Origin: Fimbriimonadaceae bacterium
Lineage (GTDB): Bacteria > Armatimonadota > Fimbriimonadia > Fimbriimonadales > Fimbriimonadaceae
Assembly (NCBI GenBank): GCA_019638775.1
Contig: JAHBTD010000004.1
Location: 62,001-126,000, forward strand
Length of the DNA stretch: 64,000 bases
Direction: 5' to 3'
Shown here piece by piece: positions 21,197-25,913 of this stretch; the first letter of the stretch is position 1; each line of letters opens with the position of its first letter. A model generated the notes under the pieces. It worked only from the letters and a program-made list of their open reading frames with translations. It ran no database searches and was not told where the DNA came from. The position numbers were made by a program, and so were the translations under genes.

Positions 21197-22873
21197 ATGG
21201 ACACACCCAACGATCGAACGTGCAGCTATGACCCATTGATCGAGCTCATGGCTCGATTTGAGAACGTCAAGGCAACCGATACGTCGGTCGATCCGTTTGA
21301 AGGCCTTAGCGTCGAAGACGTGCTCAAAAAGCATATTGTTGACGGCATCAAGAAGAACCTTGAGGCTCACCTGGCCGACGCATTGGAAAGCTACACGCCG
21401 CTGGATATCATCAACAACATCCTGCTCGACGGCATGAAGACTGTCGGCGAACTCTTTGGCGCAGGCAAGATGCAGCTCCCGTTTGTCTTGCAAAGCGCAG
21501 AAGTGATGAAGGCCTCGGTGCGCTACCTGGAACCCTTGATGGAGCGTGTGGAAGGGAGCGAGAAGGGCTCTATTCTGCTTGCCACCGTTGCCGGAGATGT
21601 GCATGATATCGGCAAGAATCTTGTCGATATCATCCTGTCGAACAATGGCTACCGGGTTGTGAACATTGGGATCAAGCAGCCGATCAACACCATCCTACAA
21701 CAGGCCCAAGACAACAACTGTGAAGTGATTGGACTGAGCGGATTGCTCGTCAAGAGTACGCTCGTGATGCGGGACAACCTCATCGAAATGAACGAGCGCA
21801 AGCTAACCAGGATTCCTGTGATCTTGGGGGGTGCGGCGCTTACCCGAGCGTATGTTGAAGAGGATTTACGGTCGATCTATCAGGGCAACGTTTACTATGC
21901 TAAGGATGCTTTTGAAGGTCTTCACCTTATGGAGACTATTCAAGATGCGCCGATTCCAGAGTTGTCAACAAGTGAAGATGCTGACTTTATCCCACGAGTA
22001 AAGTCTCATCGACTACCCGATCAAGAAGCGCGATTCTATGTCTTTGATGGCGTAAAGAGTGAAGTATCCACCGACATCATCCCCCCTTCGCTTCCATTTT
22101 ACGGCGCTCGAAAGTTTGAAAAGTTCGATATGTTCGAACTTTACAAATACATTAATCCTATTGCCTTATTCCGGGGCCAGTGGCAGTTTAAACGGCCTGA
22201 TGGTATGGCGAATCCTGAATTTACTGCATGGCTTGATGCCAATGTTCAACCCACCTTTGAGAGGCTCCAGCGAGACTTGGCTCGGATTATTAAGCCGAAG
22301 GTCAAGTGGGGATATTTCTGGTGCCAATCGGAGGGGAACGACCTCATCATTTATGATGAAGATCAGAGGGGTGAGCGAGCTCGATTTAGGTTCCCGCGTC
22401 AATCCATCGACCGGCGCCAATGCCTTTCTGACTTTTTCAAGTCGACCGATTCAGGCGTGATGGATGTTGTTGGCTTTCACATTGTCACGGTGGGCTCGGA
22501 GGTCTCGGAGTATGAGCGCGAGTTGTTTGCAAAGGGCGATTTTCAGGAGTACCTTTATGTTCATGGGATGGGAGTTGAAACTGCCGAGGCGCTGGCGGAG
22601 TATTGGCATGAACAGATACGAAAAGAGATGGGCATCGACGACCAAGAGCCAGACAAAAAACGATTACTCTTTTCGGCTAAATATCATGGAGCGCGGTACT
22701 CATTCGGATACCCAGCTTGTCCTAATCTTGAGGATCAGCGCATCTTGATGGATTTACTTAACCCTCAAGATATCGGCATTGAACTAAGTGAAGAGTATAT
22801 GCTGATCCCTGAGCAATCCACTTCAGCGATTATCGTACACCACCCCGAAGCCAAGTATTTTAATATTCGATAG
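21197..22873 (+). CDS. MetH-type cobalamin-binding and activation module
   Basis: 558 aa covering only the second half of cobalamin-dependent methionine synthase. Residues ~1-95 form the helical cap, followed by the B12 domain with GDVHDIGKN (DxHxxG, cobalt ligand His) and VIGLSGLLVKS. The C-terminal AdoMet-binding activation domain has YINPIALFRGQWQFK and KYHGARYSFGYPACPNL, with RYSFGYPACP as the reactivation-site signature. The homocysteine and methyltetrahydrofolate domains are absent and no fragment precedes it, so they must be encoded elsewhere. Ends 14 nt inside the convergent HD-GYP gene. Confidence 0.9.
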   Translation: MDTPNDRTCSYDPLIELMARFENVKATDTSVDPFEGLSVEDVLKKHIVDGIKKNLEAHLADALESYTPLDIINNILLDGMKTVGELFGAGKMQLPFVLQSAEVMKASVRYLEPLMERVEGSEKGSILLATVAGDVHDIGKNLVDIILSNNGYRVVNIGIKQPINTILQQAQDNNCEVIGLSGLLVKSTLVMRDNLIEMNERKLTRIPVILGGAALTRAYVEEDLRSIYQGNVYYAKDAFEGLHLMETIQDAPIPELSTSEDADFIPRVKSHRLPDQEARFYVFDGVKSEVSTDIIPPSLPFYGARKFEKFDMFELYKYINPIALFRGQWQFKRPDGMANPEFTAWLDANVQPTFERLQRDLARIIKPKVKWGYFWCQSEGNDLIIYDEDQRGERARFRFPRQSIDRRQCLSDFFKSTDSGVMDVVGFHIVTVGSEVSEYERELFAKGDFQEYLYVHGMGVETAEALAEYWHEQIRKEMGIDDQEPDKKRLLFSAKYHGARYSFGYPACPNLEDQRILMDLLNPQDIGIELSEEYMLIPEQSTSAIIVHHPEAKYFNIR

Positions 22874-24091: not shown

Positions 24092-25093
24092 TTATGCCCT
24101 TAGCTCGCTGCAAAGAGCATCGGCAAATTCAGAAAGCTTTGCACTTCCGCCGATGTCGTAAGTCTTGATTCCCTTTTTAAGGGTTGCTTCAAGCGCGCCT
24201 TCGATATCTTGACGGGCTTTGGATTCGCCCAATGCATCAAGCATCATGGTTGCGCTAAGGAGCAGCGCAGTAGGGTTGACCTTATCCATGCCCGCGTACT
24301 TTGGCGCCGAGCCATGAACAGCCTCGAACAGAGAGCACCCTGTGCCGTAGTTCGCGCCAGGAGCAACGCCGAGCCCGCCCATCATGCCTGCACAAAGGTC
24401 GCTGATGATATCGCCATACAGGTTTAGGGTGACCAGTACGTCGTAGTTCTTCCAGCGGGTGACGAGCTGCATGCACATGTTATCGACAATCACGTCGCTG
24501 AACTCGATGTCTGGATAATCCTTTGCCACGGCCTCGCACGTTCTCAGGAAGAGTCCATCAGCGACCTTCATGATATTGGCTTTATGGACCGCCGTAACCT
24601 TCTTGCGTCCGTGCTTTCTTGCGTACTCAAACGCAGCTCGAGCGATGCGCTCGGTCCCTGCGTCGGAGATGATCTTCACCGAGTGGGCGACGTGGGGGGT
24701 TGCCATGTATTCGATCTGTGCGTACAGGTCTTCGGTGTTCTCACGGAAGATCACAAGATCCAGCCCTTCGAACGGCGTATTCACACCGGGAAGGACGCGA
24801 ACAGGACGTACACAGGCATAGAGGTCGAGCCTCTTGCGGAGTGTGACGTTCGGGCTGACGCTTCCCTTTCCGATCGGGGTGGTCATCGGGCCCTTGAGGG
24901 CGATCCCAACCTCTTTGATCTTGTTGATCGTCTCTTCAGGGACGATCGGCTTCCCAGCCTCAACGCATTTTAGGCCGGCTTCGACATCGATCCAGTCGAT
25001 ATCTACTCCGGCAGTAGCGATAATCTTCTCCACGGCAGCGACCAGCTCTGGTCCAGTGCCATCTCCGCGTACTAAACAAACTTTGTGTGACAT
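24092..25093 (-). CDS. NAD-type isocitrate dehydrogenase (isocitrate/isopropylmalate family)
   Basis: Oxidative decarboxylation of isocitrate to 2-oxoglutarate. 333 aa: nucleotide loop GDGTGPELV, substrate segment GKGSVSPNVTLRKRLDLYACVRP (Ser of the S..N..R motif favours isocitrate over isopropylmalate), the FRENTEDLYAQIEY lid, and VHGSAPKYAGMDKVNPTALLLS. The VHGSAPK...NP context suggests NAD preference. Homoisocitrate dehydrogenase is an alternative. A separate small gene at 25614 encodes what looks like the C-terminal domain of Thermus-type isocitrate dehydrogenase, which supports the isocitrate call. Confidence 0.88.
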   Translation of the reverse strand: MSHKVCLVRGDGTGPELVAAVEKIIATAGVDIDWIDVEAGLKCVEAGKPIVPEETINKIKEVGIALKGPMTTPIGKGSVSPNVTLRKRLDLYACVRPVRVLPGVNTPFEGLDLVIFRENTEDLYAQIEYMATPHVAHSVKIISDAGTERIARAAFEYARKHGRKKVTAVHKANIMKVADGLFLRTCEAVAKDYPDIEFSDVIVDNMCMQLVTRWKNYDVLVTLNLYGDIISDLCAGMMGGLGVAPGANYGTGCSLFEAVHGSAPKYAGMDKVNPTALLLSATMMLDALGESKARQDIEGALEATLKKGIKTYDIGGSAKLSEFADALCSELRA

Positions 25094-25155
25094 TATTCAA
25101 TTCCTTAGATTTCGTTGGTTAAATGTTGCTACAGCGATCAGCCATCGGCGATCTA

Positions 25156-25569
25156 TTAGCTTTCGTTTGATCCATATTCAGCGATTTCTTCGCGAACGAT
25201 TCGGTTTGCTGCCTGCAGGCTCGTTTCTTTGTGAAGCATGTAGAGTGCACGTCCGAGGTCATCGGCCTGCTTCTTCAGTGACTCAACCGACTCATGCGTT
25301 GTGATTCCAACTTCAAGCGCGACTTCAAGAAGACTCTCGCACTCGCGTAAGGAGCCAAGAGCGATCTCAAGAAATCGCGCAAACTCTGTGCTCCTGTTTC
25401 TGCCCCAGCCCTCGGCAATGTTTGATGAAACGGAAACGGCTGCACGGCGAATCTGTGAAGTCATTCCAAAAGACTCGTCCTTTGGAAACGTCCGACTCAG
25501 TTCGTAGATCGACGATGCAAACTGCACTGCCAATTGCCAAACCTTGAGTTCACGAAAAGTCTTAGCCAT
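25156..25569 (-). CDS. Four-helix bundle protein (23S rRNA intervening-sequence family)
   Basis: 137 aa from the ATG of MAKTFRELKVWQLAVQFASSIYELS; the longer frame adds unrelated residues. The signature LKVWQLA..., FGMTSQIRRAAVSVSSNIAEGWGR and FLEIALGSLRECESLLEVA is diagnostic of the family found in 23S rRNA intervening sequences and as free-standing genes linked to diversity-generating elements. The biochemical role is unknown; avd-like proteins of this fold bind RNA. Here it lies between the isocitrate dehydrogenase core and its detached domain. Confidence 0.9.
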   Translation of the reverse strand: MAKTFRELKVWQLAVQFASSIYELSRTFPKDESFGMTSQIRRAAVSVSSNIAEGWGRNRSTEFARFLEIALGSLRECESLLEVALEVGITTHESVESLKKQADDLGRALYMLHKETSLQAANRIVREEIAEYGSNES

Positions 25570-25613
25570 AGCCCGTTCCCGATTGCAGATTGCTGATAGC
25601 CGATCGCTCCCTC

Positions 25614-25913
25614 TTAATAGGCCGCCGAATACAGGTTGTTCCCGTCCTGCCTGTACAGCTTCTGGCATTTTGTCCAGACCAATCCAAGCTCGCTGACCTT
25701 TTTCACCAACGCGTCAACGTCGGCATCGGTCGCTTCGGCATCGCTTTCGTAACGGCAGCGCGGCCAATCAGACGGGGCGATCTCCGGGGCAGGGGGCGGC
25801 CACACTCGGGTGCCGCGGTCGGTGATCATCGTAAGTTTAAAGCTGCCGAATTCCTTCGGCACGTCCGGCATATCCGAACTCCATATATAGATGTCGACTC
25901 CGTGGAGGTTCAT
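25614..25913 (-). CDS. Detached C-terminal domain of Thermus/Rickettsia-type isocitrate dehydrogenase
   Basis: 99 aa with GVDIYIWSSDMPD, FKLTMITDRGTRVWPPPAPE, DWPRCRY and WTKCQKLYRQDGNN. This order matches the extra domain after the catalytic core in Thermus-type IDH (GVDvf, L.mvsNRGt.VyP, CRF, w.h.EKL...G). Here it is a stand-alone gene upstream of the core, with the four-helix-bundle gene between. The start has AAGGA upstream. Possibly a regulatory or dimer-stabilising subunit. Alternatively it is a small protein of a related but separate family; a profile search would settle it. Confidence 0.65.
   Translation of the reverse strand: MNLHGVDIYIWSSDMPDVPKEFGSFKLTMITDRGTRVWPPPAPEIAPSDWPRCRYESDAEATDADVDALVKKVSELGLVWTKCQKLYRQDGNNLYSAAY

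Follow-up and report, generated by a model that had tools for sequence, protein, structure and literature searches.

A conserved gene pair encoding an isocitrate dehydrogenase core and its free-standing C-terminal domain in Armatimonadota

Isocitrate dehydrogenases with and without an extra C-terminal domain

Isocitrate dehydrogenase (IDH) is a central and much-studied metabolic enzyme, and nitrifiers among Nitrospira use it in carbon fixation. The C-terminal extension of Thermus IDH covers the dimer clasp with a larger clasp-like structure, and apart from this extension the enzyme is like those of subfamily III (PMC3521221). The enzymes of subfamily IV (Thermus thermophilus TtIDH, 2d1c; the Rickettsia type; PRK09222 and TIGR02924) are single chains of ~480-500 residues in which the core comes first, and the fusion makes the role of the extra domain difficult to study. 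A shorter fused form of ~465 aa, also a single chain but with an NAD-type DI motif, is found in Ignavibacteria, Kapabacteria and others. The extra domain is absent from the short homodimeric IDHs (6m3s of Xanthomonas, 6lky of Methylococcus; PRK08997) and from IDH3, and we know of no partner gene of the small-domain kind for these enzymes. No paper on a split IDH, or on the Nitrospira gene pair as a two-subunit enzyme, was found among the open-access papers searched, an absence that is weak evidence.

The locus described here lies in a stretch of 64,000 nucleotides from a Fimbriimonadaceae bacterium, hereafter the window. It encodes a core of the same family as that of subfamily IV and the same ~100-aa domain, by sequence and by fold, but on two proteins and with the small gene first. 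The split core shares its fold with the short homodimeric enzymes and IDH3 (Z 45-47 over ~330 residues). Its nearest fused relatives are the short NAD-type forms rather than the Thermus-type fused group of Armatimonadota, although the window pair, unlike these short forms, is split and carries a different cofactor motif. The two-gene IDH of Nitrospira, as in N. moscoviensis, has the same two domains on adjacent genes and the same KY motif and belongs to the sister clade in both trees described below, but its core gene precedes the small gene, the reverse of the window order. The conserved two-gene IDH is new as a variant, and its chemistry would be ordinary.

The gene pair and the gene inserted between its members

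Transcription on the minus strand runs from the 99-aa ORF through a four-helix-bundle gene to the 333-aa ORF (Table 1). The ATG of the small gene at 25913 is preceded by AAGGAC, which resembles a ribosome-binding site, and that of the core gene at 25093 by AAGGAATTGAATA.

Table 1. Coordinates of the split IDH genes and of the insertion between them (positions in the window)
Feature	Position	Strand	Identification
Small subunit gene, 99 aa	25614-25913	-	PF18324, free-standing IDH C-terminal (clasp-cover) domain
Upstream inverted-repeat arm	25585-25610 (approximate)	-	sequence alignment
Four-helix-bundle gene	25156-25569	-	PF05635 (23S rRNA IVP-type), inserted between small gene and core
Downstream inverted-repeat arm	25121-25155 (approximate)	-	sequence alignment
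Catalytic core gene, 333-aa IDH without C-terminal domain	24092-25093	-	PF00180, NADP-type motif APKYAG

The first-pass annotation had proposed an IDH encoded in two genes, with the small domain upstream, and a profile search with the 99-aa product agreed with this proposal. The product matched PF18324 (Isocitrate_DH_C_bact) with 61 bits against a cut-off of 25 (E 1e-16), the last ~100 positions of the NCBIfam profile PRK09222 (376-479 of 482) and residues 417-487 of Thermus IDH 2d1c (E 4e-5). Its AlphaFold (AF2) model, built from an 81-row alignment, reached a mean pLDDT of 91.7 and a pTM of 0.85, and the sole significant match of this model in the PDB was again 2d1c (TM 0.81). In the 99-aa product, the extra C-terminal domain of the Thermus/Rickettsia-type IDH exists as a separate protein. 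A spurious ORF or a chance match was ruled out by the Pfam score, the fold match and the conservation of the product.

The 333-aa protein matched PF00180 with 338 bits over profile positions 1-347 of 348 and ends where the profile ends, as expected for a core that lacks the extra domain. A complete IDH with its own C-terminal domain elsewhere would have spoken against the split; however, no second PF18324 domain, and hence no complete fused IDH, is found elsewhere in the 4.3-Mb genome (99.9% complete). The genome contains two further Iso_dh proteins, LeuB and a 341-aa core-only paralogue that is 52% identical to the split core and has an NAD-type DI motif. This paralogue is present across the family of the window genome, and the small domain is not found beside it.

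The product of the middle gene, whose likely start is the ATG at 25569, matched PF05635 with an E value of 1e-37, and seven PF05635 matches occur in the window genome. A third gene between the two parts was correctly noticed at first, but it does not belong to the IDH system: it lies between the pair only in the window genome, which rules it out as a third IDH component, and it is a later insertion. The flanks of 33 PF05635 copies of the family were compared. Flanks of the same copy tend to form inverted repeats, with a median local score of 33 compared to 16 across copies (p 5e-14), and these own-copy repeats support the insertion of the gene. The window copy is at the weak end of the same-copy scores, its imperfect repeat consisting of a 22-bp alignment of AGCGATCGGCTATCAGCAATCT with AGCGATCAGCCATCGGCGATCT that scores 24 where the cross-copy 95th percentile is 23. 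The inverted repeats around the window copy and the other family copies are often made up of 7-bp-like words (e.g. GGTTGGC, GTAGATT), and the repeat sequence is specific to each copy. The PF05635 gene has the look of an inserted element whose ends vary.

Elsewhere in the window, a 558-aa protein encoded on the plus strand (21197-22873) resembles by eye a MetH reduced to its B12-binding and activation part, with the substrate domains missing, and is possibly another split enzyme.

Linkage, distribution and history of the pair

The conservation of the gene order was examined in 291 Armatimonadota genomes. The 32 genomes with this core type are the same 32 that carry the free small domain, and in all of them the small gene lies on the same strand directly upstream of the core (in the window, with the insertion between). 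The small gene was never lost among these 32 genomes, and among the 291 no free small gene was found without a core of its own clade beside it. A Fisher test on the counts (32/0/0/259) gave p 2e-43, a value that is only descriptive because the genomes share kinship. The free domain recurs in relatives, whose close cores are 71-82% identical, and the presence of the order in 31 other genomes rules out an assembly or frameshift artefact. The domain-to-domain gap between the small gene and the core is 7-179 bp in these 31 genomes and 526 bp in the window. Gaps of 101-179 bp occur in four genomes besides G019, in which the gap is 146 bp (L043, 9403-9548) and contains short repeated words (gacgagcgacgagtgacgag); the latter gap is possibly the scar of an insertion like that of the window. 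One genome (G009) carries a split pair together with two fused IDHs with the small domain.

The surroundings of the pair were compared in 12 relatives, over 9.8-19 kb each (~10 kb per side where the contig allowed) and for genes of at least 110 aa. The core was the only real gene common to most of them, as two plus-strand ORFs that seemed to be shared proved to be frames antisense to it. The neighbourhood therefore changes around a pair that stays together. The shortness of the pair and the lack of an intervening gene in 31 of the 32 genomes suggest that expression is probably coupled.

To extend the search, named genomes were scanned with small-domain patterns from a 5-row alignment and classified by script into three architectures; some MAG names may be wrong, and the Armatimonadota and Nitrospira sets are each numerous. 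Built on these patterns, the scan cannot see cores without a small gene outside the phylum. The small-then-core order occurs in Fimbriimonadia/Armatimonadota and in Bipolaricaulota/Acetothermia, and the core-then-small order in many Nitrospira (among them N. moscoviensis, with its complete chromosome NZ_CP011801), in one Bacillota MAG and in one Bacteriovorax MAG. The fused form was found in Ignavibacteria, Kapabacteria, other Bacteroidota, Acidobacteriota, Planctomycetota and some Fimbriimonadia. Plasmid records yielded one weak match only, in a Deinococcus IDH. In the Nitrospira loci the core and the small gene are adjacent, and N. moscoviensis has two cores of the split type and a monomeric IDH.

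Quick trees were built for the core (94 rows) and for the small domain (108 columns), with SH-aLRT as the only support. The small-first cores form one branch (99), which is joined by the core-first pairs of Nitrospira and Bacillota (95). Similarly, the small-first pairs form one clade in the small-domain tree (97), with the Nitrospira and Bacillota pairs as its sister (97). The Bacteriovorax core groups with the short fused forms, so that its split looks independent. The core tree, which does not include Thermus itself, also contains a clade of core-only paralogues without the small domain, and in it the split core and the Thermus-type fused enzymes of Armatimonadota fall into different starred groups. 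The first-pass annotation was right that the small gene comes first, but what it saw as the wrong side for a simple split appears from these trees to be an old trait common to one clade, the expected order being that of its sister clade.

The simplest history of the pairs has a single split and, later, a reversal of the gene order, although the genes may instead have been ancestrally separate and later fused. The split would probably have occurred in the ancestor shared with the Nitrospira-type pairs, a later rearrangement would have placed the small gene first, and the mobile-looking four-helix-bundle gene would then have entered between the two, in the window lineage alone.

Core and small-domain distances were correlated, with Spearman coefficients of 0.59 in small-first pairs, 0.86 in core-first pairs and 0.77 in fused forms, shared ancestry being uncontrolled in these values, which are given no weight as evidence. 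Evolution is faster in the small protein than in the core, with a mean distance ratio of 1.86 in the small-first clade and 1.36 in fused forms. Such faster evolution would suit a domain that has left IDH for another partner and stays beside the core for shared transcription. We give this explanation hardly any credence, as the small-domain tree mirrors the core tree and the phylum contains no free small gene apart from its matching core.

Catalysis, selection and probable joint function

The window core has the equivalents of E. coli S113, N115, R119, R129, R153, Y160, K230, D283, D307 and D311, and none of these ten isocitrate, metal and catalytic positions varies among 20 split cores. The split core is predicted to oxidise isocitrate, or less probably homoisocitrate or a related compound. 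Within the cofactor motif of the window core, K265-Y266 occupy the positions of E. coli K344-Y345. These NADP-type residues are conserved in most split cores (of 20 small-first cores, 17 have the K and 18 the Y), while the core-only enzymes and the short fused ones have D-I. The window split IDH most likely uses NADP, and would operate alongside the core-only NAD-type paralogue.

No other Iso_dh core beyond LeuB-like matches, and neither a PRK08299-type nor a monomeric IDH, was found in the sister family f5, some genomes of which are incomplete MAGs. The split enzyme is therefore probably the IDH of this family. Among the 16 genomes checked, a PRK08299-type IDH occurs in one alone (G008), where the split core carries an NAD-type DI motif, a combination that fits a change of cofactor role.

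The dN/dS of the small gene was 0.07-0.12 in close Armatimonadota pairs and 0-0.05 in close Nitrospira pairs, the larger values of distant pairs being affected by saturation, and 14 columns of the small protein are invariant across 13 genera. The small gene is under purifying selection. The existence of core-only paralogues indicates that relatives of the core can do without the domain, and the core might accordingly act alone, next to a remnant of an ancestral fused enzyme retained by chance or linkage. However, this is highly improbable given the low dN/dS, the invariant columns and the retention of the small gene in every genome with the core type.

Homology, fold, catalytic residues, linkage, clades and purifying selection are established, and an assembly between small protein and core is strongly favoured. 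The constancy of the pairing makes it very probable that the two proteins act jointly. We consider it likely that the pair makes up one IDH, in which the small protein supplies the clasp domain in trans to the core dimer. The core would be the catalytic subunit, probably dimeric, and the 99-aa protein would provide the ~100-residue domain of the Thermus type (subfamily IV) as a second clasp, the larger of the two, across the dimer. An alpha2-beta2 assembly would be expected, with the small subunit stabilising the core dimer or setting its activity.

To model the two parts together, a permuted single chain in the order small domain, linker, core was derived from locus L035 by reading its stops as Gly. 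Both domains had high pLDDT, and the pTM of this monomer model was 0.74, with no confident docking; by rough expectation, undocked domains would give about this value. It speaks neither for nor against binding because a domain that bridges a dimer may fail to dock on a monomer. A second structural comparison aligned the core only, 2d1c included.

The small protein might instead be a separate regulator and not a constitutive subunit, binding the core, and turning it on or off, only in response to some condition such as redox state, temperature or a metabolite. Its own gene would permit independent dosage, the single-chain model lacks confident docking, and the small protein outpaces the core in evolution. 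On the other hand, the probable coupling of expression in nearly all of the genomes and the structural role of the domain as a clasp in the solved fused enzyme make such a switch rather unlikely compared to the clasp supplied in trans.

The domain exists here as a protein of its own, in either gene order and alongside fused relatives, which makes its role testable by mixing the parts. Tentatively, a two-subunit IDH may be widespread across Armatimonadota, Bipolaricaulota and Nitrospira, with the clasp domain as a separate and exchangeable subunit that controls the assembly or the activity of the core dimer.
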